In this document: piece by piece, positions 9,854 to 35,224 of the stretch
Position numbering within the stretch: position 1 is the first letter of the stretch
How the letters are laid out: each line of letters starts with the position of its first letter
NCBI GenBank assembly: GCA_018396655.1
Contig: JAGTQF010000011.1
Coordinates: 1 to 35,247 of the forward strand
Length of the DNA: 35,247 nt
From: Candidatus Bathyarchaeota archaeon
GTDB taxonomy: Archaea; Thermoproteota; Bathyarchaeia; Bathyarchaeales; DTEX01
Reading direction: 5' to 3'
Position numbers and translations under genes: made by a program
Notes under the pieces: model-generated
Told to the model about the DNA's origin: nothing
The model's input: the letters and a program-made list of their open reading frames with translations, nothing else
Database searches by the model: none

Positions 9854-11147
9854 TGATTTCTACTCCCAGCAGACGCATATCTCTAATAAAATCTGGGTAG
9901 GATTTATTTATGCATTCGGCATCATGTATGACTGTTTCCCCCTTAGCAGCCAGAGCCGCAACAGCACAAGCCATGGCTATGCGATGGTCCCCATGAGGAT
10001 CTATCTCGGCGCCTCTCAATTCCCTTACACCGTAAATAATTATCTTGTCGTCTAAAACCTTTATCTTGGCTTTCATTTTTGAAAGCTCGGTTAGCAGGGC
10101 TTTAACTCTATCAGACTCCTTAAATCTAAGCCTCCCAACACCGCTAATAACAGACTTGCCTTCAGCCATGCATGCTAACACCGCGCATACTGGGACAAGG
10201 TCTGGATTATCCCTCATATCAACATCAAGCGGCTTCAGCGGTCCATCCGCACCCATAACCTCAATAAAATCTTCACCAACCCGCACATGTACTCCAAAAT
10301 CATGAAGAAGCCTAACTATAATACGGTCTCCCTGAAGGCTCCTCCTGGGAAGATTCTCTATTCTTACACGCGAGCTAGTTATGGCTGCTGCAGCCATTAG
10401 GAATGCGGCCGAAGAATAATCCCCCTCAATATAATAGTTGTGCAACCTATACATCTGCCCGCATGGTATATGAAAGACCCTTCCATCGCCGGTGACTTCA
10501 ACCTTTATCCCATGCCTATTAAGCACATCCAACGTTACATCAATATAGGGCCTGGACTCTAAGGGGGTCGTGAGAACTATATCCGTATCATTCTCAGCCA
10601 TAGGTGTGGCGAAGAGCAAGCCCGAAATAAACTGTGAGCTCACATCCCCCCTAATACTGGCCCTCCCACCCCTTATCCCACCGCCAAAAACAACTATGGG
10701 TGGGCATCCATCCATCCTAGTCGAATAACATTTTACACCCAACTGGCTTAAGGCATCTAGGAGTGGGCCCATAGGTCTCCTCCTAAGGCTCCTCCCACCA
10801 GTCAAAACTGATATTCCATCGGCCAGAGCGCAGACTGGCGTAATAAATCTAATTGTCGAACCAGACTCTTTGCAGTCGATTATATCTTCTGGGGTTTTAG
10901 GCCTAGAAATCCCCAAAACCCTGAGTGCTCCACCACTTTCCTCACTTATCTCAGCTCCAAGCATACGGCAAGCATTAATTGTTGCCAGAGTATCATCACA
11001 TATAAGTGGGTTATGTATTGTGGAGGTGCCCTCAGAGAGCGCGGAGGCTATGATAGCCCTATGTGTATAAGCCTTTGAGGGCGGTGCCCTAACTAAACCC
11101 CTTAAACAAACCCCGCCTTTAACAATTAGGTCCGTCAACTCTTCCAC
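9843..11147 (-). CDS. aroA: 3-phosphoshikimate 1-carboxyvinyltransferase (EPSP synthase)
   Basis: 434 residues. Joins phosphoenolpyruvate to shikimate-3-phosphate, the sixth pathway step. Recognisable parts are the N-terminal substrate loop PPSKAYTHRAIIASAL, the PEP-site stretch CKESGSTIRFITPVCAL, DVSSQFISGLLFATP, GDYSSAAFLMAAAAI, RFKESDRVKALLTEL and DPHGDHRIAMACAVAA. The PEP-site ESGSTIRF corresponds to the ESGTS.R form of other archaeal enzymes. It lies 3 bp after the shikimate kinase gene and overlaps aroC by 11 bp. Confidence 0.97.
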   Translation of the reverse strand: MEELTDLIVKGGVCLRGLVRAPPSKAYTHRAIIASALSEGTSTIHNPLICDDTLATINACRMLGAEISEESGGALRVLGISRPKTPEDIIDCKESGSTIRFITPVCALADGISVLTGGRSLRRRPMGPLLDALSQLGVKCYSTRMDGCPPIVVFGGGIRGGRASIRGDVSSQFISGLLFATPMAENDTDIVLTTPLESRPYIDVTLDVLNRHGIKVEVTGDGRVFHIPCGQMYRLHNYYIEGDYSSAAFLMAAAAITSSRVRIENLPRRSLQGDRIIVRLLHDFGVHVRVGEDFIEVMGADGPLKPLDVDMRDNPDLVPVCAVLACMAEGKSVISGVGRLRFKESDRVKALLTELSKMKAKIKVLDDKIIIYGVRELRGAEIDPHGDHRIAMACAVAALAAKGETVIHDAECINKSYPDFIRDMRLLGVEIIER

Positions 11148-11150
11148 CAG

Positions 11151-12014
11151 CTAAATTATCTTAGCCTTTTCACGGTTTATAGAGGTCTCGATTATCTCGC
11201 CGCCATACCTTTCTATCGCCCCTCGAATATCGCTCACTCTATCCTTTGGAGCAACAACAGCGACAGCGGGTCCCTTACCGGAGAGCCCAGCAGCTATAGC
11301 ACCGTTGGCCAGAGCATCTATTACTATATTAGGGTTATAGCCCAAAACCGCTGAGTATAATATTCCGTTGATTGTCATAGCACGCCAATAATCGCCGAGA
11401 AGAGCCATCCTATGTATAGCCTTAACTTCATCGGCTATTACCCTCATCCTCCTAACATCAGACTTTGCTGTATAAGACTTCTCTCTGGGAACGTGAACCA
11501 AAATGACATAATCCTCTTCGGGCTGAAAGCACTTAAGAATCCTCCGCCCAAGATTATCCGTCACTACTATATTCCCAAAGTATGAGGCGCATGCGTCATC
11601 AAATGCTCCAGTAACGGTTACGCCAGCCTCAATAGACGCATCAACACCAATATTAACCACCGTTAAATCATCGGCATTTTCATTCAACGCTGATACGGTA
11701 GCCAGCGCGATGGCATTAGCCGCAGCACTACTACTCTTCAATCCTCTAGCAATCGGAATATTAGATTTAGTCTCAACATACGCGCCATACTCACCCTCAA
11801 GATTAAAGTGCCTTAAAACCCTCCTAACAACCATCTCAATCAATATTGTGCTTTCAGAGGGGTCTGAAAGTATCTTGCCCTCAATTCTTCCAGGCTCATT
11901 TGTCAGCCTAACAGTAGCCTCGGTTCTGAGGCTCACGCCTAACGCCGCCCCTAAACCACATGATATAGCATTAACTATTGTGACAGCGCCATAAGCTACA
12001 GCCTTACCAATCAT
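11151..12014 (-). CDS. aroK: Shikimate kinase, archaeal GHMP-kinase type
   Basis: 287 residues, belonging to the GHMP superfamily rather than the bacterial NMP-kinase-like AroK. The ATP-binding motif is GLKSSSAAANAIALA (about 91-105), preceded by SNIPIARG, and the glycine-rich third motif AAGLSGKGPAVAVVA is near 240-255. It phosphorylates shikimate at the 3-hydroxyl, the fifth step. Position between aroE (11-bp overlap) and aroA (3-bp gap) makes the substrate assignment secure despite the wide range of GHMP kinases. This non-orthologous kinase is one of the clearest archaeal markers in the window. Confidence 0.95.
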   Translation of the reverse strand: MIGKAVAYGAVTIVNAISCGLGAALGVSLRTEATVRLTNEPGRIEGKILSDPSESTILIEMVVRRVLRHFNLEGEYGAYVETKSNIPIARGLKSSSAAANAIALATVSALNENADDLTVVNIGVDASIEAGVTVTGAFDDACASYFGNIVVTDNLGRRILKCFQPEEDYVILVHVPREKSYTAKSDVRRMRVIADEVKAIHRMALLGDYWRAMTINGILYSAVLGYNPNIVIDALANGAIAAGLSGKGPAVAVVAPKDRVSDIRGAIERYGGEIIETSINREKAKII

Positions 12015-12903
12015 CCTTCATCCCTCTATTGTACCCCTCAGCCTCACGCATCTTTTTTAACGCAGCTTCCTTCATAACCTCTACCGGCGCCCTCATACCA
12101 GTCCATATCTCAAATGATGCTGCTCCCTGATGTATCAACATTGAGAGGCCATCAATAGTCTTTGCACCAGCAATCCTCGCCTCCCTAATAAGCCTAGTTT
12201 CAAGTGGCTCATAAATTATGTCAAAAACCGTGAGATTACTATGTAAAAAATCACATCTGACGGGGGTTTCAGAGTCATTGGGCTTCATCCCGATAGAAGT
12301 CGCATTGATAAGTATATCAGCATCCTTAAGCTCCCTCTCAAGATTCCGGTCGGCCAGCTCTCCAGCCTTAACATTAACCAAATCGCCAAGAGCATCACGT
12401 ATGTTGCGTGCCAAATCCACAGCTCTCTCCACAGTCCTATTCAATATGATAAGCTCACGTGCATATTCAGCCAGCGTGAAAGATATGGCCCTAGAAGCAC
12501 CGCCAGCTCCAAGTATGACAATCTTCTTGCCAGAGGGGTCGACTCCGGCATATCTCAGAGCATTTAAAGCCCCAACTCCATCAGTCGTATAGCCTACAAG
12601 TCTTTCATCCCTATTAAGAACGGTGTTTACTGAGCCAATTCTTCTCGCACTCTCGTCCAAAATGTCAAGATACTTAATTATGCTGATTTTATGCGGCATT
12701 GTAATATTTAGTCCATAAATGCCAAGCCCCCTAACACCCAGAATCGCCTTCTCTAGATTTTCAGCGCTGACATTAAATGCCACATAAACATAATCTAAGC
12801 CCAGATGCTCGAATGCCGCATTCTGTATTGTTGGGCTGAGCGAATGCCAAACAGGGTCTCCTATTAAAGCGCAAACCCTAGTCCTACCAGATATACCTAT
12901 CAT
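12004..12903 (-). CDS. aroE: Shikimate dehydrogenase
   Basis: 299 residues. Reduces 3-dehydroshikimate to shikimate with NADPH, the fourth step. Substrate-domain motifs: GDPVWHSLSPTIQNAAFEHLGLDYVY and GLNITMPHKISIIKYLD (catalytic lysine in PHK). The Rossmann motif VILGAGGASRAISFTLAEY lies near 129-147, followed by ILNRTVERA, with arginine placed for NADP recognition. C-terminal GLSMLIHQGAASFEIWTG is conserved. The start codon overlaps the aroD stop by 4 bp (ATGA type), and its own end overlaps aroK by 11 bp. Confidence 0.97.
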   Translation of the reverse strand: MIGISGRTRVCALIGDPVWHSLSPTIQNAAFEHLGLDYVYVAFNVSAENLEKAILGVRGLGIYGLNITMPHKISIIKYLDILDESARRIGSVNTVLNRDERLVGYTTDGVGALNALRYAGVDPSGKKIVILGAGGASRAISFTLAEYARELIILNRTVERAVDLARNIRDALGDLVNVKAGELADRNLERELKDADILINATSIGMKPNDSETPVRCDFLHSNLTVFDIIYEPLETRLIREARIAGAKTIDGLSMLIHQGAASFEIWTGMRAPVEVMKEAALKKMREAEGYNRGMKDDW

Positions 12904-13610
12904 TCAACACCAAGCCTCCCATAAATCTCCCTCAAATCCTCTATGGTTAATTGACCTGACGCAGTTTCAAATCCCACGCCAAGAGATGCGTAAGTAAACG
13001 ATGCGCCAAAAATGGGTGATAAAACTCTAGAAAGCAAACCATATCTCCCCATCGCGAAGCAAATCACATCATATTTTTGGCTAACCTCATACGTGAGAAT
13101 TAGGCATTTAATACTATCATCGAGGCCATTTGCCATAGTAACAACTTTACATATATCCGCCCCAGCTTCAACCTCAGCCCTAACAATCCGCTCAAGCTCA
13201 GAGAGACTTGGCGTTGAATTAAAATCGTGGAAAGAGATTATGACTCTCGCCCCATAAGTCTTAACAGCGCCAACAACATCCCTTAACCCCTCCGTAACTA
13301 ATTCAAAATCAACGTATGTGAATCCAGCCTCTGCAGCTTTAAGGAGAACGTTAATCCTTTGCTCCTCACTTAGATTCCACATGCCGCCTTGTCCAGCGTG
13401 CCTATTAGTTGCTATAAGCGGAACAGACGTATATTTAACGAAATCTTTCAACCTATCTAGGGCATCCAGCAGTTCAGAACCCATATAATCTAAGCGCAAC
13501 TCAATTATATCTGCACCGCTCTCCTCAGCTCTCCGAATCATAGCGAAGGCTTCTCGAAGGCTTCTGGCTGGTATCGGCACACAAACCCTAATTTTCCTCA
13601 CATCCACCAC
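12900..13610 (-). CDS. aroD: 3-dehydroquinate dehydratase, type I
   Basis: 236 residues, starting at GTG (13610; further GTGs at 13607 and 13601 are possible). Removes water from 3-dehydroquinate through a lysine Schiff base, the third step. The type I fold is shown by ADIIELRLDYM near the N-terminus, ARVIISFHDFNSTPS with the catalytic histidine region, DICKVVTMANGLDDS with the Schiff-base lysine, and the C-terminal FGASFTYASLG. First gene of the aro operon, with a plausible TATA box about 50 bp upstream. The two earlier steps are not encoded nearby. Confidence 0.96.
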   Translation of the reverse strand: MVDVRKIRVCVPIPARSLREAFAMIRRAEESGADIIELRLDYMGSELLDALDRLKDFVKYTSVPLIATNRHAGQGGMWNLSEEQRINVLLKAAEAGFTYVDFELVTEGLRDVVGAVKTYGARVIISFHDFNSTPSLSELERIVRAEVEAGADICKVVTMANGLDDSIKCLILTYEVSQKYDVICFAMGRYGLLSRVLSPIFGASFTYASLGVGFETASGQLTIEDLREIYGRLGVE

Positions 13611-22230: not shown

Positions 22231-23631
22231 CTATCGGGTGGTAAGGGTTGTTATGCTATCAGATGGAAGAAGGACCTCAAGTAAACCATCTCTAACCACT
22301 ATGTTACCAATATATTTGCAATTCTCGTTTCTTGATGTGCGATATTGCTTTAAAGTCAATGATGGTGTGATATTTTTTAAGGATATTTTAGCATTAACGT
22401 CCGTCATTCCCCTATTTATCAATACTATTGTGATGTCACCGCTCTCCTCATTTAGATAGGCTGAGGCTAGAATTTGAGGTCTATCGCTTCTTGCTTCTAC
22501 CCTAACAGAGCCTGGACTTATGAACTTAAAGAATTGCTTAACAGCATAATATTTAGGGGTTATTTTATAGTTGTCTCCTTGAGAGCTTATACTAATCAGC
22601 CCAGTCTCCCTATACCAAAATAGCTCCCAAACCAAGTAAACTGAGGCATTTCCATACACCAGCGTATTATGAATGTGTTGAGCCGTATAAAGAGCTTCCT
22701 CATAGGTGCCTGCATATGGAAAATCTAGGTAGCTATATTCCGTCATCCACAAAGGCCTACCATACTTAGCACAATAACCAGAAATCGTTTTAAGCCATCC
22801 TATCCCCTGATCGGGATTAAAGAATTGTATATCGTATAGGTGCACAGCGAAGACATCAACATACTGAGCTGCCTCGGGATCAGACATTATTGTTTCTAAG
22901 TAATTGAGGGCAGCGTAAACGCCAGAAGTTTCTGGAACAACTATCTTTGCTGTTATCCCTTCTCTAGCGAATTTTCTGCCAACAACCTTTATCAATTCCT
23001 TTAGTTGCTTGGGTGTATAGATGCAAGTCTCCCAAGTAGCAGTATAATCTGGCTCATTTTGTATGCTTACCCAACCTATGTCTATGTCATGATATGTCTT
23101 GTAACCCAAAATATAGGCGGACAACCACTCCGCGAATTCCTCATACATTTCTGGCAGAAGATAACCATCATTCGTCTCCTGCGTATTATTTTTCATCCAG
23201 GCTGGTGGGCTCCAGACGGAAGCTATAAACTTTGTAACACCCCTCTTTTTAGCCTCAAGGGCATTCCAAACTTGGTCTTGGTCTGTTGTAAAGTCGAATG
23301 CTTCCCAATTGAAATTATTTGGGTCATCGTCATCATTTTCACTCTCAATCTTAGTCCACACTCTCAGCCTATAGATGCTTATTCCAAGGTCTGAAAAAAG
23401 TAGGTCTGTAGCCTCCGTTCTAAGCGGCTCTTTTAGATTCCTTAATAAATGCTCGTAGTAGGCTCCTGAACCACCAAATCCCTCAATTCTTTGATATTTT
23501 CTTGCCCCATCAACCTCGATTATTGATTCTATAAGCGTTACACCAATCCTATTTTGAACAAGAAAATATAAGAATAGACTTCCTATTATCACTATTGCCG
23601 CTAAAGTAAGTGTAAGAGTCTTCCATTTCAT
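22231..23631 (-). CDS. Glycoside hydrolase family 30-like secreted or anchored enzyme
   Basis: The track ORF starts at 23649, but GGTGAC lies 6 nt before an inner ATG at 23631 (MKWKTLTLTLAAIV), giving 466 residues. An N-terminal hydrophobic segment (about 6-26) acts as a signal or anchor, placing the enzyme outside. GH30 traits (track numbering): QRIEGFGGSGAYYEHLL near 53, SVWSPPAWMKNN near 144, acid/base E199 in VSIQNEPDY, nucleophile E304 in LWMTEYSYLD, then a C-terminal beta domain (about 385-472). The family covers glucosylceramidases, xylanases and beta-1,6-glucanases/galactanases; which one cannot be told. Its promoter region is shared with the divergent M28-FtsX gene. GH30 is uncommon in archaea. 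Confidence 0.88.
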   Translation of the reverse strand: MKWKTLTLTLAAIVIIGSLFLYFLVQNRIGVTLIESIIEVDGARKYQRIEGFGGSGAYYEHLLRNLKEPLRTEATDLLFSDLGISIYRLRVWTKIESENDDDDPNNFNWEAFDFTTDQDQVWNALEAKKRGVTKFIASVWSPPAWMKNNTQETNDGYLLPEMYEEFAEWLSAYILGYKTYHDIDIGWVSIQNEPDYTATWETCIYTPKQLKELIKVVGRKFAREGITAKIVVPETSGVYAALNYLETIMSDPEAAQYVDVFAVHLYDIQFFNPDQGIGWLKTISGYCAKYGRPLWMTEYSYLDFPYAGTYEEALYTAQHIHNTLVYGNASVYLVWELFWYRETGLISISSQGDNYKITPKYYAVKQFFKFISPGSVRVEARSDRPQILASAYLNEESGDITIVLINRGMTDVNAKISLKNITPSLTLKQYRTSRNENCKYIGNIVVRDGLLEVLLPSDSITTLTTR

Positions 23632-23756
23632 TTTAATGTCACCATGCATGCAACTTAATATCTACAATTATTATATGGCGCTAAGCTCTCCTTTAACTAT
23701 TTTTTGAGTAATCTTTAAAAACCTAAATTTGAATATTCATCTTTTGGGTTTAGCGT
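23632..23756. promoter_or_regulatory. Divergent promoter region, GH30 / M28-FtsX fusion
   Basis: A 125-bp A+T-rich spacer. CTTTAAAAAC at 23713-23722 suits the plus-strand gene (leader about 15 nt, no strong SD). CCATATAATAATT on the minus strand (about 23675-23687) suits the GH30 gene. Shared control of the two is possible. Confidence 0.4.
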
Positions 23757-26700
23757 ATGGTCTCAACTGGTAAGTGGGGAAAAATATCTTTATCTCTAGC
23801 TCTAACGATATTTCTAGTAGCCTCCTACATAATGATAGTGCTTTTATTATCTGCGAAACCGGCTGTTGCTCAGGAAATCACCTTTGACTACTTTACACCA
23901 GCATTAAAAGCAATTAATATAGATGAGCTTAAGGGCTTTGTAGAGGACCTTGTCGGTTTTGGCTCAAGGTTTACTGGGTATCCTGGGTGTTATGCTGCAG
24001 CCGATTATATTGAGAGCAAGTTCCGCGAGTTTGGTTTGTCACCCGTCTTAAGACACAGCTTTAGGACTCCCATACCAGTGGATGAGGGCGCCTATATAGA
24101 GACATCCTTAGGTGAGAGAATAAAAGTTTATCCAATCTACCCGAATAGGGTTTGTCCACCGCAGACTCCGCCTGGAGGCTTAACTGGACGTTTAGTTTAT
24201 GTGGGCTCGGGCGAATATGAGGACTTTGATGGTAAACCAATAGAGGGCAGCATAGTTTTAATGGACTTTAACACGCAATATCATTGGGTTACTGCGGCTA
24301 AGTTCGGTGCTAAAGCTGTTGTCTTTCTTGAGCCAGAATATACAACAACGGTTGAGGCCCGAATGAAACTGATTGAGAGCGTAGCATGGAACTTTCCAAG
24401 AGTATATGCTAGGGCTGAGGAGTCAAGGAGACTTCTACAGCTGGCTGAGAGGGGAGAGATAGTTACATTGGTTTCTAATATGAAGTGGCGCAATGTTGAA
24501 TCCTACAATATTATTGGTTATTTAAAGGGAACAGCTTATCCCGATGAATATGTGCTGATAACAGCGGCATATGATAGTTTCTCATTTATACCAAGTCTAG
24601 CCCCTGGGGCTAGAGAATCTATAGGAACAGCTATAATGCTCCAGCTTGCTAAGTTCTTCGCTACGCATCCAGGTTCAAACAAATATACGCTGGTTTTCAT
24701 AGCCTTTTCTGGAACAAATCAAGGGGTCATTGGTTCAAGATGGTTTATGAAGGAATATGTAGATAATAAGTGGAGTGAATGGGGCAGCAGAGTGAAGTTC
24801 CAGATGAACATAGACATAAACGACATAAACAAATATCTTATGCCATATCTCGTTATGGGGTGGACATATGGGTGGAATGAGGGTGTAGCGCCTTGGCTGA
24901 CAAACTATTACGATTGGTTCTTCAAGACCTTACTCCCAGATTTAGCTGAAAAGCTTAATAGACCCTATCTTGCCAAAGAAGACCCAGCTATAGGTAGGCA
25001 ATGGATTCCCAAAGAAATGTTCGGGACTGGAGGACCTGGTCACGGCATAATTTATGAAGATTACTATGGCTCCCCACTTAGATATGCTAACAGCGAACCT
25101 CTACTGATTTTGGGCGGTCCTGGGATGACATGGGGTAACCTATGGGCATACAGTAATGATTATTGGACACCATTCGACTTGCCGGACAACATTAACTGGG
25201 ACAATATAAAGTTTAAGCTCGAAGCCCTCTATCCAATAATCTACGCCACGGTTAATATAGACCTTTCAGCCCTCATAGGGACTTGGGTTCCTAAGGCTCC
25301 AGGCCAGTACTATCCTAAGTGGGTCGATGTAGTTGGTAAGACAATGGAATACAATATGTACTCTGGATGGTGGGATATACCGGTTAAGAATGCCATAATA
25401 GTTTACGGGAGGGGCAGTCCATCCGCTTTAGGCTTCCGGCCATATCAGCTTCTCTTGCCATCTTATGCCATGTCGGATGAGGATGGAGATGTATATATAC
25501 CCGGCCTGTTGCAGATGGAGAGGTTAATGATGGGCAGCTATGGTCTAGAGGCCTATGTTATTGATGAAGAGACGGGAAATGTTATATATGCTCCGGCGTA
25601 TGGAACATACTGGTTTAGGGGAAGAGTTGACGCTTCTTCTATAGGTACAAGCTTCCAGGTAAACACTTATGATAGGATGCAGAACTTTGGCATATATACG
25701 CTGTTCAAGTGCGGTTCTATAGTATTATTCGACATATGTGACATATACTATAGGAGCGGTTCAATAGATGTTGGCGGTGGCGGCGGTCTCTCATTGACAG
25801 TTAATGATTTCGTATCTCATGCTCCGCCTGACCAGTGGAGTTGGGACTTCTACATGTATGGTGGGTATGGTGTTAGCGTCGCAGTGGCTTTTGTTCCTCC
25901 GGAGAAACCTGTAGAATTTCTTGTTCATACAACTTACACTAGAAGATATCCAATGCTGGTTCTGACTAATTCGAGTGATGAGTATCCATTGGGCGTAGGC
26001 TTCACTGTTAAAGAGGGAGAACAGCATGCGATAATTCATACAACGCTTAGATTCGCCCAAGACATGTACAGACTGAATTTAGATAGGATAAAGACGCTTT
26101 CAGCCGGGGGCATAACTCCCTCCGGCTACACCGATACAAAGGAGCTCTTTGAAGAAGCGCTATTGGCTCTCAAGAACCGTGAATATAGCAAGCTTGAGGC
26201 GCTATCAAACAGGTTACTGGTCTATGAAAGGAATAATTATTCAACCTTAAGGGCGTCGATTGAAGATGCAATATATGCGATAACATTCTTTGGCTTGACC
26301 CTAGTGCCCTTCTCAATCCTTACTGAGAGGCTCTTCTTCCAGTCTAGTGGCGTAAAACGCGTAATGATTACGCTTTTTGGCTTCGTAGTTCCTCTGGCTT
26401 TCCTATCATTTGTTCATCCGGGCTTTAGGCTTGCAACAGACCCCATAATGGTTATTATAGGCTTCTTAGTTGTGGTTCTAGTAATGCCCCTAATAGCAGT
26501 GATATTAAACACCGTCCTCTCAGCTATAAGGCGCTTAAGAATCAAAGTTGCAGGGGTTCACTGGGTTGAGATGCCAAGGTTCTCTGTCGCTCTACTTGGA
26601 TTCTCGACTGGCATCTCACATATGAGAAAACGAAAGCTGCTGACTGGCTTAACGCTTATTGCAGTAATACTTGTAACGTCATCTACCTCGGCATTTACAT

Positions 26701-28412
26701 CGCTGGGCTCTCTAAGAGTAATTAGAGAGGAATCTACTGGAAGAGCAGCGCTTTATAATGGAATTTTGTTCCATCATCAAGACTATTCTGGCGGAGGCTT
26801 TGAGGATTACGGTGGATTAGGTGGTGCTCAATCACGACCGCAGGTAGGAGAGAGATTCTTAGCCGAGTTTAGAGTATTTTATGGAGACAAGGTTATAATG
26901 GCTCCTAGAGCATGGTCATACATCGGATATAGTATGCGCGGAACATATCTGCTTAACGAAAGCGGCCTAGTCACATATGACTATGAAAACAGAAAGGCGG
27001 TAATGAGGCCGATAAGAGGCTTCTTAGGGATGACTCCTGAAGAGAAGTATGTTACTGGCGTAGACAAGACAATAATTGATGGCTTCTGGTTTACGGAGAG
27101 CATGGCCGATAAGATGGTGGCGATAATATCAAAGAAGATGGCTGATGGACTGGGAGCTAAGGTAGGCTCAACAATTATGGTTTCGGGCTTCGCCTTCAAA
27201 GTTATAGGAATAATCGATGATAACGCCTTCTTTGAGATAAAAGACTTAGACGACCTTCAATTGACAATATGGGATGATAGAGTTCCGGGTTACTCCGGCA
27301 GGGTTGCTCCAGACGAGCTTATAATAATCCCATATAAGACGCTCTTAACAATATCTAAAGGCTGGATTGTTAGCGTGGCGATAAAATTTAAGCCGGAATA
27401 TGCAACTTACGACTCAATTATAGCGGTTGCAAGAGAGATATATAAGCAGACTGATGCATTCTCGCCAGTACCACTGAATATTGGTGTTGAAGGCGTGGTT
27501 TGGACTCTATCTCCGCGCTCAGTCGTTACAGTCTTTGGGTGGCAGCAGCAGATTATACCAGTGATTATATCTGCAATGGTAATACTTGGTCTTATGATAA
27601 GTTCTATAGAGGAGAGGAGACGCGAGATACAAGTGCTAAGCACGGTAGGTTTATCACCATTCCATGTAGCCTTTCTATTCCTCTCTGAGAGCGTCACATA
27701 CTCGGTGGTTGGTGGCATAATAGGCTATATATTGAGCATGATAATGGCTATGCTTGGAGGAATAGTTGGCGTTGAGGGGCAGCTCAACTATGCCTCTACA
27801 GTTGTGGTTACAACAGTATCTATTATGATGCTGGCAATATTAGGGGTGACAATTTATCCAGTGATTAGAGCTGCAAGAATGATAACTCCTTCACTTGAAA
27901 GGAGATGGAAGGCACCGCCACCAAAAGGTGATATATGGGAGATACCGCTGCCATTCTTTGTAACCGAAGATGAGGAAGCTAACGGAGTCCTGTGCTATAT
28001 ACATGAGCTCTTAATGGGGCATCTAGCAGAGGATTCGGAAATATTTAGGCTAAAGCCACCTGTAAAGATTGTGGAGCAGAAAGACCCCAAGATGCATGTT
28101 AGGGCATTAACTTTCGAGTCTTTTCTGGCACCATATGACCTTGGCATAACTCAGTATGTTGAGTTCTTGGACATTAAGAGTATTGATACCAAGAGACACA
28201 ACTTTTCACTATATATAAAGAGGCTTACTGGACCAAGAGGCTCATGGATAACATTTGGCAAGGGATTCATAGATTTAATGAGAAAGCAAGTTCTCTTATG
28301 GAGAAGCTTCACACCCAAAGAGAGGATTGAATACCAAAAGAGGTTTAAAGACTTATTGCTAAAAATTGAGAGTGTAAGTTCGCGTGTTGAGGAGGCTGGG
28401 AAGAGTGAGTGA
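23757..28412 (+). CDS. M28-like (probably inactive) ectodomain fused to FtsX/MacB-type permease
   Basis: 1551 residues. Layout: signal/anchor helix (about 10-32); M28 aminopeptidase-like domain with PA insert (about 55-500); a second beta-rich extracellular domain (about 505-775); helices near 840-860, 866-886, 893-922; FtsX-type core with a helix near 958-985, an extracellular loop domain (about 990-1255) and helices near 1262-1284, 1302-1338, 1346-1372, including EERRREIQVLSTVGLSPFHV; cytoplasmic tail (1375-1551). The M28 metal sites are degraded: HxD is AYD (271-273), PGADD is PGARE (283-287), GEE is GTN (319-321), and the last His region reads YWTPFD. Only D273 and D353 of the usual acidic ligands remain. 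FtsX permeases normally need an ABC ATPase, none being adjacent. The next gene overlaps by 8 nt. Confidence 0.85.
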   Translation: MVSTGKWGKISLSLALTIFLVASYIMIVLLLSAKPAVAQEITFDYFTPALKAINIDELKGFVEDLVGFGSRFTGYPGCYAAADYIESKFREFGLSPVLRHSFRTPIPVDEGAYIETSLGERIKVYPIYPNRVCPPQTPPGGLTGRLVYVGSGEYEDFDGKPIEGSIVLMDFNTQYHWVTAAKFGAKAVVFLEPEYTTTVEARMKLIESVAWNFPRVYARAEESRRLLQLAERGEIVTLVSNMKWRNVESYNIIGYLKGTAYPDEYVLITAAYDSFSFIPSLAPGARESIGTAIMLQLAKFFATHPGSNKYTLVFIAFSGTNQGVIGSRWFMKEYVDNKWSEWGSRVKFQMNIDINDINKYLMPYLVMGWTYGWNEGVAPWLTNYYDWFFKTLLPDLAEKLNRPYLAKEDPAIGRQWIPKEMFGTGGPGHGIIYEDYYGSPLRYANSEPLLILGGPGMTWGNLWAYSNDYWTPFDLPDNINWDNIKFKLEALYPIIYATVNIDLSALIGTWVPKAPGQYYPKWVDVVGKTMEYNMYSGWWDIPVKNAIIVYGRGSPSALGFRPYQLLLPSYAMSDEDGDVYIPGLLQMERLMMGSYGLEAYVIDEETGNVIYAPAYGTYWFRGRVDASSIGTSFQVNTYDRMQNFGIYTLFKCGSIVLFDICDIYYRSGSIDVGGGGGLSLTVNDFVSHAPPDQWSWDFYMYGGYGVSVAVAFVPPEKPVEFLVHTTYTRRYPMLVLTNSSDEYPLGVGFTVKEGEQHAIIHTTLRFAQDMYRLNLDRIKTLSAGGITPSGYTDTKELFEEALLALKNREYSKLEALSNRLLVYERNNYSTLRASIEDAIYAITFFGLTLVPFSILTERLFFQSSGVKRVMITLFGFVVPLAFLSFVHPGFRLATDPIMVIIGFLVVVLVMPLIAVILNTVLSAIRRLRIKVAGVHWVEMPRFSVALLGFSTGISHMRKRKLLTGLTLIAVILVTSSTSAFTSLGSLRVIREESTGRAALYNGILFHHQDYSGGGFEDYGGLGGAQSRPQVGERFLAEFRVFYGDKVIMAPRAWSYIGYSMRGTYLLNESGLVTYDYENRKAVMRPIRGFLGMTPEEKYVTGVDKTIIDGFWFTESMADKMVAIISKKMADGLGAKVGSTIMVSGFAFKVIGIIDDNAFFEIKDLDDLQLTIWDDRVPGYSGRVAPDELIIIPYKTLLTISKGWIVSVAIKFKPEYATYDSIIAVAREIYKQTDAFSPVPLNIGVEGVVWTLSPRSVVTVFGWQQQIIPVIISAMVILGLMISSIEERRREIQVLSTVGLSPFHVAFLFLSESVTYSVVGGIIGYILSMIMAMLGGIVGVEGQLNYASTVVVTTVSIMMLAILGVTIYPVIRAARMITPSLERRWKAPPPKGDIWEIPLPFFVTEDEEANGVLCYIHELLMGHLAEDSEIFRLKPPVKIVEQKDPKMHVRALTFESFLAPYDLGITQYVEFLDIKSIDTKRHNFSLYIKRLTGPRGSWITFGKGFIDLMRKQVLLWRSFTPKERIEYQKRFKDLLLKIESVSSRVEEAGKSE

Positions 28413-30303
28413 GCAAACTAGTGTAGCCCTACGCGGTCGAGGATTAACCTGGCGCTCTATACTTGCTCTCCTCTACATAACGTTTGTATTCCAGTCTTCT
28501 ATGGCCTTCATGCATCTGGTGACGGGTTCAACTCCCTCTTATTCCGCTGTTCAATGGGCTACAATCCTACTATTCATAGAGTTGGCAGCGGTCTTCGCTG
28601 GGACTAAACTGACAATATTTGAGGCTGTAATAATTTATTTAGCGGCTGGGCAATCGATAAAATACTGGTGGTTCCTAGCCCCTACGCTTGGGAATCTTGC
28701 TCATCCAGGATGGATATACCAGATATATTTGAGGTATTCACCGGTCTCTATTGCTCTGGGGCTTGCTGATAAAATTCCGTGGTTCTATGCTCCAGAATCT
28801 TACGAGGTTTGGGTTCAGAGAACATTGTTTCATTCCGAATGGACTATAGTGGCCATTTGGACAGCTGCATATTGGCTTGCAGCTATGTTTGGGGATTTCG
28901 CAATGAGCATACTAGGTTACCACCTATATGTACGTGTGGAAAATCTGCCATTCCCATATGCTGACCCGATAGTTGATACGACAAGAACTCTTATAGAAAG
29001 AGAATGGAAGAGAATGAGTATACTTGGTGCATCATCAATTCTAGGTTTCGTTTATGGTCTTCTGCTTTATACTCTCCCGCTAACTGGAGAAGTCTTCCTA
29101 AATGTTAATCTTAGAACTATACCAATTCCATGGGTAGACTACAATTATCTAATACAGCAGGCTTTGCCCGGGGCTTCACTTGGTATTGCTACCGACCTAG
29201 CGGTTATGGCGACAGGCTTCATACTGCCATTTAATGTTGTTTTGGGCTCACTAATAGGTTCCATCGCCATATATGTTGTTGGAAACCACCTACTAGTTAG
29301 GTACGGTGTAACTGGCTTCGCTCAGGAATACACCTATGGGATGGATATACAGACTTGCTGGCAGCGCTCTGTATTATGGGCTTGGGCAATGCCGATGGTC
29401 GGAGTTGCAGTGGCTGTGGGCGTGGTCCCATTACTACTTAGGCCCAGAGAGACCTTTAAGGCCTTTAAGGCTTTTAGGCGTGTTACTGAGACCGCTGCTG
29501 AGTTTAATGTGGGGCTAGTTATAGGCTTATTCTTGGCAGCAACTCTTGGTTTATCCTTCGTTGATTATTGGCTCGCGCCGGACTTCCCACTAGTCTACCT
29601 AATATTACTTAATGTTGTTATACCATTCCTAACAATGCTTGTGGCTGTTCGCGGTGAGGGACTAGGAGTAAGCATTGGAGTGCCCTATGTAAGGGAACTC
29701 GTGATTAAAGCAACTGGGTATCCGGGCATAAACGCATGGTTTGTTCCAATATATACTTCGTCTTCTTGGGTTACTGGATTTAAGGTGTGCGATATGACCA
29801 ATACGAGGATGAAGGATGTAATACTTGGCATGTTCATAATATTCCCAGTAGCCCTGTTTATAGGGTACATAACGGTTCAGTCATTATGGAGGGTTGCTCC
29901 AATACCATCCTCAGTTTATCCAGGAGTACTTTACGCATGGCCAGTGCAAGCGACATTTCAATCCATCTTTATATCACCGGAGGCAGCGGTTTTCTTCCAG
30001 GTTCCCTATATGCTTTACGGGTTCATTGCCGGCAGCATATTGTATATCGTGGGGCACGTGCTACATATAACGCCCCTAGTAATTGGAATAGCTGGTGGAA
30101 TCGGCTCTCCAACCCCATCGGCTCTCTCAATCTTCATTGGAGCAGTAATCGGTCTATTAATGCAGCGCCTTATCGGCAGAGACTTCTGGAGAAGCATTCG
30201 AGGCATAATCTACGCTGGAATCTTACTGGGTGAGGGACTGGCGGTTACAATAGGCACCGGATTAGCTGTGATAATGAGAAGCATGTGGGCAGCCCCATAC
30301 TAA
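28405..30303 (+). CDS. OPT-like multispanning transporter, first of two
   Basis: 632 residues from GTG 28405. The track starts at GTG 28384, but GGAGG at 28391-28395 lies 9 nt before 28405. The gene overlaps the previous stop by 8 nt, suggesting translational coupling to the M28-FtsX fusion. Very hydrophobic, with a dozen or more likely helices. NLPFPYADPIVDTTRTLI (track residues 187-204) resembles the LPFP motif of oligopeptide transporter (OPT) proteins, and the C-terminal ITPLVIGIAGGIGSPTPSALSIFIGAVIG resembles a later conserved OPT region. Similar archaeal proteins are often listed only as uncharacterised (DUF6785-like), which I recall rather than can verify. OPT proteins import peptides or metal chelates with protons; the substrate here is not known. 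Confidence 0.72.
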   Translation: MSEQTSVALRGRGLTWRSILALLYITFVFQSSMAFMHLVTGSTPSYSAVQWATILLFIELAAVFAGTKLTIFEAVIIYLAAGQSIKYWWFLAPTLGNLAHPGWIYQIYLRYSPVSIALGLADKIPWFYAPESYEVWVQRTLFHSEWTIVAIWTAAYWLAAMFGDFAMSILGYHLYVRVENLPFPYADPIVDTTRTLIEREWKRMSILGASSILGFVYGLLLYTLPLTGEVFLNVNLRTIPIPWVDYNYLIQQALPGASLGIATDLAVMATGFILPFNVVLGSLIGSIAIYVVGNHLLVRYGVTGFAQEYTYGMDIQTCWQRSVLWAWAMPMVGVAVAVGVVPLLLRPRETFKAFKAFRRVTETAAEFNVGLVIGLFLAATLGLSFVDYWLAPDFPLVYLILLNVVIPFLTMLVAVRGEGLGVSIGVPYVRELVIKATGYPGINAWFVPIYTSSSWVTGFKVCDMTNTRMKDVILGMFIIFPVALFIGYITVQSLWRVAPIPSSVYPGVLYAWPVQATFQSIFISPEAAVFFQVPYMLYGFIAGSILYIVGHVLHITPLVIGIAGGIGSPTPSALSIFIGAVIGLLMQRLIGRDFWRSIRGIIYAGILLGEGLAVTIGTGLAVIMRSMWAAPY

Positions 30304-30322
30304 ATAAAAGATCTCCCCACCA

Positions 30323-30328
30323 TTTTTT
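30323..30328 (+). terminator. Possible U-rich terminator after first OPT-like gene
   Basis: A run of six T residues about 20 bases after the stop codon, before a separate promoter for the next gene. Confidence 0.35.
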
Positions 30329-30428
30329 AACAATATTGTTTAGTCGTTTTTCAGATGGAATGTTGAAGTTAGCGCGATTTACTAATTGATGGAATCTCGC
30401 GTGGTAGGTGTAAAATTCTAGGCGTTAA

Positions 30429-30440
30429 TTTTATAAATTA
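30429..30440 (+). promoter_or_regulatory. Probable TATA box of second OPT-like gene
   Basis: TTTTATAAATTA lies about 50 bp before the SD-supported TTG start and would start transcription near 30456-30462. This supports the inner start and separate transcription. Confidence 0.45.
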
Positions 30441-30486
30441 AAATGTAAATAATAAAGTGGGAGTGAGGGAAAAGGAGGGGAATCTT

Positions 30487-32598
30487 TTGGCTGAAAAGGT
30501 TGTAGCCGTTATAAGACCTAGGGCTTATATCATTGGCGCTATTGCGGCCGCAATAGCCGTATTGGTCATGGAGTTCGTTGCGCTCTTCACTCCAGGCGGC
30601 ACACTATGGGGCCTGCATGGTGAGACATGGAGCAATGCTTGGATGTCTAATATGACGTTTGGTTTCTTCTGGCCGCTTCTTCTATCATCAATATGCGCCC
30701 TACTGGGAAAATATAATGTTATATCTAAGCAGGAGTTTGTGATTATCCTGACTATGGTTTGGACTACGTGGATGCTCCCAAGCTACTATGGTATACTCCC
30801 ATTGTTGACGGCTCTTGGGACAGCAAGGCAGATTCCGGCATTCCATAGATGGAACCTTGAGTATGCTAAGGACATTAATTGGCAGTTTGGGCCTGACCCA
30901 CTAAACCCCGCATTATGGGAGTCATGGATGTATGGAGGCCCAGTCCCATGGGCTGAGTGGATGCCAGCCCTAACATTCACCCTAGCAAGGCTCATACCAT
31001 ACTATTTAATGTACATGTTCTTTGCGACGTTATGGCGTAGGGAATGGGTTGATGTTGAAGCACTACCATTCCCACATGCAACGGCAGCATCAAAGCTGGT
31101 AGATATGGCGTTTGAGAAGGAGAACGGCTCAATAAAACTGTTCAGAAATATATGGCTTTGGCTGGGAGTCCTAATAGGGCTACTAGCAATATACCCATAC
31201 TGGATATGGACAATACCAGGACTAGGCATACCCATACCCTCCCACATGGGTAGAATAGGTGTTGATTACACGCCATACGTGATTATACCACTAGCAAACC
31301 TAAACTTCAACTTCGAACTATTCCTAATAGCCGGAGCAATACTAGTCCCAACCAAAACGCTATTCAGCTACGTAGTAACAAGCATAGCTGTAATGTGGGT
31401 TTGGTGGCCAATAATGAACTATCTCGGCCTCTGGGAAGCCCAGTCCGCTGGCACTACCGGCTATGCTCACTCGCTCTACCATAACATTTGGAGGGGCACA
31501 TCTACTGGCCCAATGATGTCGGCATGGAAGAGCGAATGGGGGCCGCCGGCACTGCTAGCTATAGGAGCGTTATTTGCGTTCATATTTGTTCCATCATTCA
31601 CAACATTCAGGGGTGAATTGGTCAATTGCCTTAAGGCAATTGTCGGTAAAGCCCCACCAGAAGTCGAGGAAAGGGAACCAATGAAATATAGGCTCATGTT
31701 TCTGCTCTTCATAGTATTTCTACTCATATCAGTGGGCTTATGGTACTACGCAAGCTTAGGAACACTGCCAATAATATTCGGGATAATATACTATATATTA
31801 AACGGATTGTATTACATGGGCAGAGCTAGGACCGCAGCCGAGTTCGGTCTAGTTATGGATGGCTGGAACGACCAGATATTTGCCCATAACTGGGATAGTA
31901 TGGCTAAGGAGTGGTGGCTCGCCGACCCCGCCTCACCATTCTACATAAGAGACCCAGCAGTCAGATTCCTACCATTAAAGACGGAGTGGACGTGGTTCAC
32001 AACGACCATGAGGACTGCTCCAATGGCATCCCTACTAGAAATGTATAAGATTGGTTCGCTTCAGGGGGTTAGGTCAAAGCATATACTGACAAGCACAATA
32101 ATTGCTATGATAGTCGGCTTAATAGTCGCGATATTCGCTTATCTGCCATTATGGTGTAGTTATGGCGCAACAAACCTATCAATATTCAATTATACTGGTG
32201 CGCCACACAACTACTTCCAGAGAGCACCAACATATGGATCCATAAGTGAGGTCGGGGATTACTGGAGGAGTGGCTTAGGCCATCAGCCTCAGCTCAAGCA
32301 TTGGGTCCAGATAATCGTTGGGGCCGCAATAGTGACCGTTGTATACATATTACATGCTAGGTTCCCATGGTTCCCACTCAACGCAGCCGGAGTAACATTA
32401 GGCTTCTGCTGGATTACCTATACTGTGACTGTTCCAGCCTTGGTTGCTTTGGTGGCTAAGTATGTGATATTGAGGATTGGTGGTGCAAAGGTCTACGAGG
32501 AGATGGTCGTCCCATTCGCAATAGGCGCAATGGCATGCACAGGCATAGCCATATTCTGGGGAGTCCTATACAACTACGCCGCCCTACTAACAGCATAA
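30487..32598 (+). CDS. OPT-like multispanning transporter, second of two
   Basis: 703 residues from TTG 30487 (MAEKVVAVIRPRAYI). The track start GTG 30457 would fall at the expected transcription start, whereas GGAGG at 30474-30478 suits the TTG 8 nt later. Many hydrophobic segments. DVEALPFPHATAASKLVDMA (track 199-218) matches the LPFP region of the preceding gene, marking the two as relatives. Other features are GAILVPTKTLFSYVVTSI and HARFPWFPLNAAGVTLGF, again OPT-like. A loop near track residues 430-545 separates two membrane halves. The pair may form a heteromer or carry different substrates. A peptide cargo is inferred from family and neighbours only. Confidence 0.72.
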   Translation: MAEKVVAVIRPRAYIIGAIAAAIAVLVMEFVALFTPGGTLWGLHGETWSNAWMSNMTFGFFWPLLLSSICALLGKYNVISKQEFVIILTMVWTTWMLPSYYGILPLLTALGTARQIPAFHRWNLEYAKDINWQFGPDPLNPALWESWMYGGPVPWAEWMPALTFTLARLIPYYLMYMFFATLWRREWVDVEALPFPHATAASKLVDMAFEKENGSIKLFRNIWLWLGVLIGLLAIYPYWIWTIPGLGIPIPSHMGRIGVDYTPYVIIPLANLNFNFELFLIAGAILVPTKTLFSYVVTSIAVMWVWWPIMNYLGLWEAQSAGTTGYAHSLYHNIWRGTSTGPMMSAWKSEWGPPALLAIGALFAFIFVPSFTTFRGELVNCLKAIVGKAPPEVEEREPMKYRLMFLLFIVFLLISVGLWYYASLGTLPIIFGIIYYILNGLYYMGRARTAAEFGLVMDGWNDQIFAHNWDSMAKEWWLADPASPFYIRDPAVRFLPLKTEWTWFTTTMRTAPMASLLEMYKIGSLQGVRSKHILTSTIIAMIVGLIVAIFAYLPLWCSYGATNLSIFNYTGAPHNYFQRAPTYGSISEVGDYWRSGLGHQPQLKHWVQIIVGAAIVTVVYILHARFPWFPLNAAGVTLGFCWITYTVTVPALVALVAKYVILRIGGAKVYEEMVVPFAIGAMACTGIAIFWGVLYNYAALLTA

Positions 32599-32630
32599 AA
32601 AAGAAGCCAAATCAACCACAACCCCTACAA

Positions 32631-32636
32631 TTTTTT
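32631..32636 (+). terminator. Possible U-rich terminator after second OPT-like gene
   Basis: A six-T run 32 bases after the stop codon. Confidence 0.3.
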
Positions 32637-32692
32637 AAATATCTCATCACAAAACCAGGCTAGCAATATTTCCCTTATACCTTCATATGCTG

Positions 32693-32728
32693 ATACCTCC
32701 CTATCTTCTCGAATAGCCTCTCCCCCTC
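32693..32728 (-). repeat. Diverged inverted copy (copy 3) of the 8038/8670 repeat
   Basis: On the minus strand, 36 bases align without gaps to the repeats at 8038 and 8670 with about six mismatches; the last twelve, ATAGGGAGGTAT, are identical. One frame reads RGGEAIREDREV (against RGEGANRKDREV in copy 1), another EGERLFEKIGRY (against EGRELIEKIGRY). It lies in the 174-bp gap between the second OPT-like gene and the caspase-fold gene. Confidence 0.75.
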
Positions 32729-32772
32729 TACTGCAAGAGTTTTTATGTATAATCCATGAATATTTTATTGGG

Positions 32773-33666
32773 ATGGAGAAGATGCTTTTAAGCGGGTTAA
32801 GAAACCCCCTCCTAGTAATAGCTGCCATAGCCTTCTTTTTAGATTCCAACGTATTATCTGCTGATCTTCGGGAGTGCGGAAGAGCTATTGTTATCGACCC
32901 ATTTAATAGAGAATTTAATTTAATGTCTCTGGACGTATATGAAATGTACATGAGGAGCATAATTTATAGTCTTGAGAGGGCTGGCTATGCTGTAGATTAC
33001 TATAAGGATGAAAATGTAACGATAGATCTTCTTAAGAGACTTGATGATGAGGGATATGACATTGTCTATATAAATTCGCATGGATTCATCGATTCTCGGG
33101 GGTTATTCGCGCTATTCGTTAGGGAGAAATTAAATTCAGAGAACGCGCTTCTATATCAAGACGATATTGCAGAGAACCTTATAGGATATCTTAAGGAGGG
33201 GGATTTGGCGGGATATCTCTATGTAACGCCGGGATTCTTTTTACGATATGGAAATGATAGTCGTCTTCCCGGAACAATTATTTTTGTGGACGCATGCTAC
33301 TCCGGAAATAATACGAGTCTAGCGGACGTTTTCCTCGTTTTAGGAGCTAGTTGCTTCATAGGCTGGGATAAAGTTGTTAATGTAATACATGGGATAATGA
33401 TGGACGGGCTTTTCTTTCATGAGACATGTAAGTATAATAGGACTGTTGAGGAGGCACTCCGTAAGACTAGGAGAGACCCAGAGAGTGGGGCATCACTAGT
33501 CTATTTCGGAGACGGCTCCCTAAGAATTCAAAGGGTTGCATTAAATGCGGAATCTGAGGAAATCCCTAATTTCATTTTAGGAATAATACTCATCTTAATA
33601 TTTTCAGCTTCAGCTTGTATAAGCTACATTATGCTATCAAAAGTTCTTGGAAAAGGAAAATATTAA
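32773..33666 (+). CDS. Membrane-anchored caspase-fold (clan CD-like) protein
   Basis: 297 residues. A signal peptide (about 1-30, ending VLSA) is followed by an extracellular domain and a C-terminal membrane helix (267-289) with a short basic tail LGKGKY. The domain has the two clan CD hallmarks: a hydrophobic strand then His in DIVYINSHG (H103), and a hydrophobic strand then Cys in TIIFVDACYSG (C175). This pairing is typical of caspase-like, gingipain-like and CHAT peptidases. Several N-glycosylation sequons (NVT, NNT, NDS, NRT) agree with an outside location. A TATA-like stretch about 25-30 bp upstream suggests a nearly leaderless message; M1 or M4 could be the start. Substrate and specificity unknown. 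Confidence 0.75.
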   Translation: MEKMLLSGLRNPLLVIAAIAFFLDSNVLSADLRECGRAIVIDPFNREFNLMSLDVYEMYMRSIIYSLERAGYAVDYYKDENVTIDLLKRLDDEGYDIVYINSHGFIDSRGLFALFVREKLNSENALLYQDDIAENLIGYLKEGDLAGYLYVTPGFFLRYGNDSRLPGTIIFVDACYSGNNTSLADVFLVLGASCFIGWDKVVNVIHGIMMDGLFFHETCKYNRTVEEALRKTRRDPESGASLVYFGDGSLRIQRVALNAESEEIPNFILGIILILIFSASACISYIMLSKVLGKGKY

Positions 33667-33706: not shown

Positions 33707-35179
33707 TTAATCAACATATGGCCATGATTTATTTTTTAGTTCTTCAGAGGGTGGATATTTAACTTCTAAGGCTCTCTCTTTTGACATAAGTTCCTCCTTA
33801 CTTATCCATCTACGTTTCCTTAGATCTTCTTCTGAGAGTACATCTTCAAATTGAGGAAGCCATCTTTTCTGGTAAAAAAGCATGTTTTCCATCATGTCTT
33901 CTATTGCTTCTTCATCTTCTATAAAAGCGCACATCGCATCCCTTAAAAGAGCTTCATAGAGGAGAGTTTTATCACCCTTCAATGCTGCCTCAACTATTAG
34001 ACGCTGATTTTCAGCATGTGGTTTTATTAACTCTGCAATTTCGGAAGGCATTTTACCAACATTTACTCCGCGTATTCTTCGGTTCTTAAAGTATCCTGGT
34101 ATTTCAACTATACAATCTTCTGGAAGATTTGGTATAAAGCCCATGTTAGGTATGTTAACTACATATTTATTTGGAATATCGTTTTTCCAATCCCTTGTCA
34201 TATCTAGTGCTTTTTCTCCACCTTTAAATGGAGCTGGCAAACGATCTATATACCAGTCTCTTGACATTGTATAGAAGTGAATAACAGCCCACTTATGCTT
34301 TCTGTCCAACTCGTTAACGTTACGGATGATATTAATACCAAAGGGAGATTGAAGGTAGTTAAAGTAATTATAATATCTTGGGATGAACTCGGCTACGTGT
34401 CTGCTTCCTGGGTAAGGAAAAAGACCATGTTTACCTAGCAAATAAAAATTAAATGCTCTTCCATAAAATGATGTTCTATAGTATTCCTTCCACCTCATGT
34501 GTAAAAGTGGATATATATCTTCACCTTTATATCTGCATTCTAAAAGCCAACCAAAATGATTAATTCCACCGTAAATTAAGTCCATCTCCTCCCATCTTTC
34601 AATTTGATAACCATTAATGCGCATTATCTCTTGAATAACTTTCATTCCACCAAAAAGTTCGTGACATAAGCCTATTACTTGAAGATCTGGAGCTATAGTT
34701 CGCATCGTTAAGGTTAAACATGAAAGTGGATTTGTATAATTAAAGACAACTGCGTTAGGACATAAGTCCTTAATATCTCTTGCAATCTCAACAAAAACTG
34801 GTACGCATCTCATGGCACGAAATATCCCGCCTGGTCCAACAGTATCACCCGTATTTTGCGGTATCCCAAATTTTAGCGGTAAATGAATGTCTATCCACTC
34901 AGCTTCTTGTGCGCCAACTGAGATTGAAATATAGACAAAATCGGCATTTTTTAATGCTTTTCTCCTATCAGTTGTGCTCTCCACAAAAATTTCTGCGCTA
35001 TATTTTCTAGCCATGTTCACCAAAATCTTATGTACGCATTTGAGTAGATCTGCGTCAATGTCAACCAACGAGACTTCTAAAGGATGAACCTCTTTCATAG
35101 CGACAATGTTTCTAAAAAGTCCTATAGAAAAGCGGTGAGAGCAAGCGCCTATATAGACAATTTTTAGTTTTTCGCTCAA
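33707..35179 (-). CDS. Glycoside hydrolase family 4 (alpha-galactosidase/alpha-glucosidase type)
   Basis: 490 residues from TTG 35179 (MSEKLKIVYIGACSHRF). The track start 35215 falls inside the probable promoter, while GGAGG at 35188-35192 lies 8 nt before the TTG. GH4 enzymes are cytoplasmic and use NAD+ and Mn2+ for redox-assisted cleavage. Seen: N-terminal nucleotide-binding strand IVYIGACS, GDTVGPGGIFRAMR, NYTNPLSC, metal-binding Cys in VIGLCHELFGG, GGINHFGWLLE with the metal-binding His, and GSRHVAEFIPRYY. The family splits alpha- or beta-linked sugars, sometimes phosphorylated; the exact sugar is not clear. A cytoplasmic GH4 could finish breakdown of oligosaccharides released outside by the GH30 enzyme, but no sugar importer is visible between them. 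Confidence 0.93.
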   Translation of the reverse strand: MSEKLKIVYIGACSHRFSIGLFRNIVAMKEVHPLEVSLVDIDADLLKCVHKILVNMARKYSAEIFVESTTDRRKALKNADFVYISISVGAQEAEWIDIHLPLKFGIPQNTGDTVGPGGIFRAMRCVPVFVEIARDIKDLCPNAVVFNYTNPLSCLTLTMRTIAPDLQVIGLCHELFGGMKVIQEIMRINGYQIERWEEMDLIYGGINHFGWLLECRYKGEDIYPLLHMRWKEYYRTSFYGRAFNFYLLGKHGLFPYPGSRHVAEFIPRYYNYFNYLQSPFGINIIRNVNELDRKHKWAVIHFYTMSRDWYIDRLPAPFKGGEKALDMTRDWKNDIPNKYVVNIPNMGFIPNLPEDCIVEIPGYFKNRRIRGVNVGKMPSEIAELIKPHAENQRLIVEAALKGDKTLLYEALLRDAMCAFIEDEEAIEDMMENMLFYQKRWLPQFEDVLSEEDLRKRRWISKEELMSKERALEVKYPPSEELKNKSWPYVD

Positions 35180-35210
35180 AATTATAACCTCCGCTAATAA
35201 ATTTGGAGGA

Positions 35211-35224
35211 ACCAATTTATATCG
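35211..35224 (-). promoter_or_regulatory. Probable TATA box of the GH4 gene
   Basis: The minus-strand reading CGATATAAATTGG lies about 35-40 bp before the TTG start. The expected transcription start near 35190-35195 leaves a very short leader beginning almost at the SD. Confidence 0.45.

Follow-up and report, generated by a model that had tools for sequence, protein, structure and literature searches.

A putative modular transporter joining an FtsX-type permease with a dead M28 ectodomain to two OPT-like subunits in archaea and bacteria

Three adjacent genes in an archaeal genome very probably encode the parts of a single functional system. They are a pseudo-M28/MacB-type/FtsX fusion (F), a first OPT-like protein (A) and a second OPT-like protein of the DUF6785/6784 type (B). 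The reading we prefer, with a probability of roughly 60%, is a modular, ATP-driven transporter built from type-VII ABC and OPT elements, in which a shared core works with exchangeable B subunits. As to its direction, import is favoured, being about twice as likely as export. The window (the whole stretch of 35,247 nt analyzed here) stems from an archaeal MAG of 1.32 Mb that is 94% complete.

The window genes and their protein folds

The fusion protein F is encoded on the plus strand (23757-28412) and is 1551 aa long, with Pfam matches to Peptidase_M28 (5e-13), FtsX (3e-9) and MacB_PCD (2e-6). It is followed on the same strand by A (28405-30303, about 632 aa), with an OPT fold in its AlphaFold model, and by B (30457-32598, 713 aa), with the Pfam domains DUF6785 and DUF6784. 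On the other side of F, a divergent intergenic region of 107 nt (23650-23756, from the ORF coordinates) separates it from a GH30-family glycoside hydrolase gene (22231-23649, minus strand), which scores above the Pfam thresholds of GH30 and of related families. Downstream of B lies a gene for a membrane-anchored caspase/CHAT-like protein (32773-33666, plus strand), recognized by HG and DACYSG motifs read from the sequence, and then a GH4-family glycosidase gene (33707-35215, minus strand; Pfam 3e-52), a local neighbor outside the core. The five ORFs from the GH30 gene to the caspase-like gene that were listed in the initial annotation are all present. Its 8-nt overlap of F and A is obtained when A starts at the GTG at 28405, which, lying behind a GAGGAGG, is most likely the start codon; the overlap is 29 nt if the longest ORF of A is taken. 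Further upstream in the window (8753-13610) is a run of shikimate (aromatic-amino-acid) pathway genes, including those for chorismate synthase and EPSP synthase.

In F, hydropathy indicates an N-terminal transmembrane or signal segment (aa 12-30), three transmembrane segments (aa 838-917) and another one (aa 961-979) preceding the MacB-type ectodomain (aa ~980-1255). The pseudo-M28 part, with a PA insert and beta domains, occupies aa ~44-832, while the FtsX transmembrane helices with the coupling motif ERRREI...VGLSP (aa 1259-1366) and a cytosolic C-terminal domain (aa ~1380-1551) complete the protein. The M28 fold is present according to Pfam, PDB profile matches, an AF2 model of the ectodomain (pLDDT 85, pTM 0.88) and the Foldseek matches of this model (6hc6, 2ek8, TfR1, and GCPII), which comprise zinc aminopeptidases with a PA domain, the transferrin receptor and GCPII. 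The PDB profile matches of F also include MacB, LolC, and YtrF.

We aligned 96 F proteins from both domains of life in two parts and took the positions of the M28 site from the alignment to 2ek8. The catalytic Glu is gone in 95 of them and kept in one, with His as its substitute in 83. The adjacent zinc-ligand Glu (of the EE motif) is neither Glu nor Asp in any of the 96 proteins, and the first zinc-ligand His is retained in 18. Judged by these residues, the M28 domain is enzymatically dead, with a site that is conserved in altered form. The pseudo-M28 assignment made in the initial annotation is therefore correct; peptide cutting by this ectodomain, which the same annotation had allowed for alongside binding, is contradicted by the loss of both Glu residues, and we ruled out an active M28 peptidase on these grounds. 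The FtsX coupling helix contains an Arg in 96/96 proteins, and its motifs ER.(R/K)E(I) and VG(L/A)xP are near-invariant in the same set. F can be assigned to the type-VII ABC (FtsX/MacB-like) permeases, with a catalytically dead M28/PA ectodomain as its addition, and so nearly constant a coupling helix leads us to expect an ATPase that works with it.

A search of the window protein A against Pfam gave no match of its own, and sequence profiles of A and B found no match among PDB sequences. The AF2 model of A (pLDDT 84, pTM 0.86) has significant PDB matches only to barley Yellow stripe 1 (YS1; 7wst and 7wsr, probability 1.00, TM 0.70/0.75), at approximately 14% identity, which indicates that A has the OPT fold. 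A paralogous B in the same genome passes the cut-off of Pfam OPT (PF03169), and in a tree, A and B separate into two clades of a single superfamily (support 100/100). The two proteins had thus been rightly called OPT-like. Because the only structural match of A is a secondary transporter of Fe(III)-phytosiderophores, A and B could also be ordinary proton-coupled OPT importers of peptides or metal chelates, co-regulated with F as a separate MacB-like machine but forming no complex with it. We consider this improbable in view of the joint evolution and the copy numbers of the three genes, described below.

A recurring module in archaea and its neighbors

A class-wide search with F and A covered 201 genomes. 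A was found in 16, of which 15 also have F; in the sixteenth (G146), the A gene stands at a contig end. About 40 loci were retrieved and their genes mapped. Counted from this map, F and A are direct neighbors in 30 of 34 archaeal pairs, often with an overlap of a few nucleotides, and about one in ten pairs is non-adjacent; B is close by in 22 archaeal loci. The fusion and the OPT-like genes hence do not lie apart in most relatives, the outcome that the initial annotation had named as evidence against its grouping. Four gene orders occur in archaea (F-A-B, B-F-A, B-A-F, and F-B-A), and this variation argues against simple inheritance of one order.

The window genome contains five F-A pairs (C3, C7, C11, C14, and C6), of which four have a full-length B in their vicinity, and its relative G012 contains six modules. 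Four modules of the window genome each pair with the same G012 module by F, A and B alike, and across 19 modules the pairwise distances are strongly correlated in Mantel tests (F-A 0.946, F-B 0.940, A-B 0.923), values reached in 0 of 5000 permutations. Together, the correlated distances and the identical pairing by all three genes indicate that the modules duplicate and evolve as units. F, A, and B form a real unit, grouped well above chance. Both this co-evolution by module and the short overlaps of F and A speak against two independent importers encoded beside a separate machine. In two genomes, the same set of three small membrane or secreted genes is inserted between F and A (L074:1277-3217 and L097:3425-5399).

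The genes bordering the window module are far less constant. Only two other genomes, G169 (L086) and G012 (L090), have a GH30 gene close to the module, in G012 on its other side, and a homolog of the caspase-like gene occurs only in G169, an 82% relative. The caspase-like protein itself has an N-terminal hydrophobic segment, a C-terminal transmembrane segment and the HG/DACYSG dyad motifs recognized by eye; its Pfam CHAT match stays below the threshold (E 0.0082, 16 of 24 bits). As neither gene is conserved outside close relatives, we rejected both as core parts, although the initial annotation had counted the GH30 protein as a part of the system and the caspase-fold protein as a partner.

Other neighbors recur more widely. 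Surface proteins of the IgGFc_binding type (PF17517) flank archaeal F-A-B modules in five loci (L100, L070, L161, L066, and L087), with up to five copies per locus. A family of 219-273 aa proteins without Pfam match recurs near F (L080, L090, L091, L101, L110, L126, and L173). We considered it as the equivalent of a ~300-aa protein encoded in bacterial clusters and discarded this idea, since hhalign finds no relation between the two.

Carbohydrate-active enzymes are encoded by at least 15 of 143 genes near archaeal modules versus at least 1 of 100 distant genes (p 0.003), and when sulfatases and a GH-like domain are counted as well, the figures are at least 18 near versus at least 2 distant genes, all counts being lower bounds from related, non-independent loci. 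At 20 bacterial B loci, among the matches listed, there is no enrichment of glycoside hydrolases relative to regions picked at random in these genomes, so that we did not read a glycan specificity from the bacterial B neighbors. If a single substrate had to be named for the window module, we would tentatively choose a glycan-derived one; substrates may differ from B to B.

Bacterial counterparts, subunit numbers and the candidate ATPase

We scanned named genomes with a six-sequence alignment of F. The nearest matches are uncultured archaeal MAGs, among them one Candidatus Bathyarchaeota (81%), and full-length F occurs in Bathyarchaeota, Thermofilaceae, Brockarchaeota, and about ten bacterial phyla. 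Clusters with the order B-F-A are present in archaea and bacteria. In bacteria, the clusters additionally encode a second FtsX protein, in many cases an ABC ATPase (MacB/LolD-like), a PqqD-like protein and the ~300-aa protein mentioned above; L175 and L181 contain two ATPases each. The PqqD-like proteins are encoded within the bacterial core cluster (e.g., L165:10345-10668 and L115:17487-17903). At one of the 20 bacterial B loci named above, genes for TldD and PmbA are located directly upstream of one B on the same strand (L228:1735-6638).

Most archaeal modules in the mapped loci hold no ATPase gene, which would suit importers that work independently of F; in one archaeal contig (L164), an ATPase gene adjoins B and F. 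The window genome encodes two homologs of the bacterial cluster ATPase (59% and 48% identical), near each other on another contig and with no permease gene beside them. An ortholog (at least 85% identical) of the 59% homolog is present in 16/16 genomes with A and in 2/185 without A (Fisher 8e-22), a figure that is not corrected for ancestry and confounded by shared descent. A second FtsX protein of ~1000 aa is found in 19 of 21 genomes of the family. Within the genus of the window genome, G168 keeps the ATPases and the second FtsX while F and A are absent, so that this pair also exists apart from the module, and G124 is without F, A, the ATPase ortholog, and the second FtsX. On similarity and this ancestry-confounded co-occurrence, the archaeal ATPases are putative members of the system.

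The three genes differ in copy number among bacteria, where A is usually single and B amplified up to 26-fold. A is present in all 36 bacterial genomes picked for having F, and B in 47 of 48 genomes (bacteria and archaea) selected in the same way, compared to 0/14 controls. Several bacterial genomes encode 10-26 B proteins with one F and one A; single genomes have 16 B, one F and one A, or 12, one and one, or 26 B and one A. In an evenly drawn sample of 131 genomes from one bacterial phylum, 108 have both A and B, two B only, none A only, and 21 neither (Fisher 2e-22), giving totals of 110 for B and 108 for A; the two B-only genomes may be incomplete assemblies. As most B genes of this phylum lie on contigs other than that of A, A and B are coupled in trans. 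Archaea amplify the module as a whole instead, with F, A, and B together, and the pattern of one core with many B is bacterial.

This co-occurrence of mostly unlinked A and B genes, with A in single copy and B amplified, further argues against A and B as ordinary, self-sufficient importers. It bears likewise on a sensing or defense device of the BceAB type, in which a compound outside the cell would be detected by the head of F and then signaled or removed by the FtsX motor. The big ectodomains on an FtsX protein and the surface-binding-like IgGFc_binding proteins beside some modules would suit such a device. It is nevertheless highly improbable, because no recurring histidine kinase or regulator was seen among the neighbor matches listed, and because it leaves the two OPT subunits and the amplification of B unexplained.

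Proposed mechanism and relation to known systems

The initial annotation had proposed a joint transport role, which remains plausible, with the caspase-like and GH30 proteins as members and with ectodomains that bind or cut glycoproteins or peptides; the membership of these two proteins and peptide cutting by the M28 domain do not stand. With the second FtsX, the ABC ATPase and the expansion of B, 'cut and import' gives way to the ATP-driven modular transporter. In this model, F, the second FtsX and the ATPase would together make up a motor that acts by mechanotransmission. The pseudo-M28 head of F would serve as a receptor or docking surface that captures or docks the substrate, and an OPT heterodimer of A and B would provide the path through the membrane. 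Specificity would be set by B, so that one core could serve many substrates, comparable to EcfAA'T with its many S components. The likeliest job would be the uptake of organic nutrients freed by extracellular hydrolases.

The same complex might work in the reverse direction, as a type-VII ABC machine that extracts or exports a peptide, a lipid or a glycan from the membrane or cell, the OPT pair serving as the way out and different B proteins carrying different export substrates. All well-studied relatives of F, namely MacB, LolCDE, FtsEX, and YbbAP, extract, export or transmit force (PMC12646458, PMC11491553). The PqqD-like gene in the bacterial clusters and the TldD-PmbA peptidase pair upstream of one B are moreover reminiscent of peptide maturation pathways. 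To our knowledge, no type-VII ABC protein imports solutes, the known ones having the three functions just named. We nonetheless regard export as unlikely: as far as we know, the OPT proteins of known activity are importers, heterotrophs with as many as 26 B in a genome are better explained by nutrient uptake, and the archaeal modules adjoin genes for glycoside hydrolases and sugar enzymes.

The proposed importer combines features of several known systems. It shares the FtsX core, the MacB_PCD-type ectodomain, the coupling helix and, in the bacterial clusters, a MacB/LolD-like ATPase with MacAB, LolCDE, FtsEX, and YbbAP-TesA. F differs from these type-VII ABC systems by its pseudo-M28/PA head, three additional transmembrane segments and the cytosolic C-terminal domain; two OPT-fold proteins are associated with it, and no MacA, EnvC or LolA partner was seen. 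A resembles the OPT/Yellow-stripe-like transporters in fold and B by homology. However, A and B belong to separate subunit families that occur together and are linked to an ABC-type partner, whereas transporters of the YS1 kind act alone. The pseudo-M28 receptors (transferrin receptor 1, nicastrin/nicalin) similarly have an M28 fold that lost its catalytic residues and is used as receptor or scaffold, in the transferrin receptor also with a PA domain, but in F this fold is fused to an FtsX permease and a conserved His mostly takes the place of the catalytic Glu.

In its proposed way of working, the system would resemble the group II ECF transporters, with one energizing core per genome and many substrate-type subunits encoded elsewhere, a role that B would fill. 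The folds are unrelated, as FtsX and OPT proteins replace EcfT and the S components, and F has a large extracellular pseudo-enzyme head. Like SusCD and polysaccharide utilization loci, the archaeal copies set transporter genes beside differing glycoside hydrolases; in contrast to these loci, no SusC or SusD homolog was seen, nor the glycoside hydrolase enrichment at bacterial B loci discussed above.

In the open-access literature we found no description of the F-A-B system, and nothing on DUF6785/6784 or on an M28 domain with an FtsX-like permease, although such absence is no proof. We know of no transporter class that unites OPT-fold carriers or subunits with an FtsX/ABC motor, and we therefore count the system as new in kind, its building blocks being known families. 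The stronger claim, to which we would give even odds, is that of a new class of ATP-driven transporters in both domains of life, in which a type-VII ABC motor and a pseudo-peptidase receptor drive an OPT-fold heterodimer, with exchangeable DUF6785 subunits for up to two dozen substrates per core.

Within one bacterial phylum, the majority of the genomes sampled have the system; it also occurs in several other phyla, and genomes often encode more than ten B. Given this wide spread and the many B proteins, it may serve as a principal path for nutrients in archaea and bacteria that are poorly cultured, including Bathyarchaeota, Thermofilales, Armatimonadota, Latescibacterota, Poribacteria, and others. 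DUF6785 and DUF6784 gain a context and a testable role, and the organization suggests that the ECF principle of a single engine for many specificities has been realized a second time with unrelated parts.
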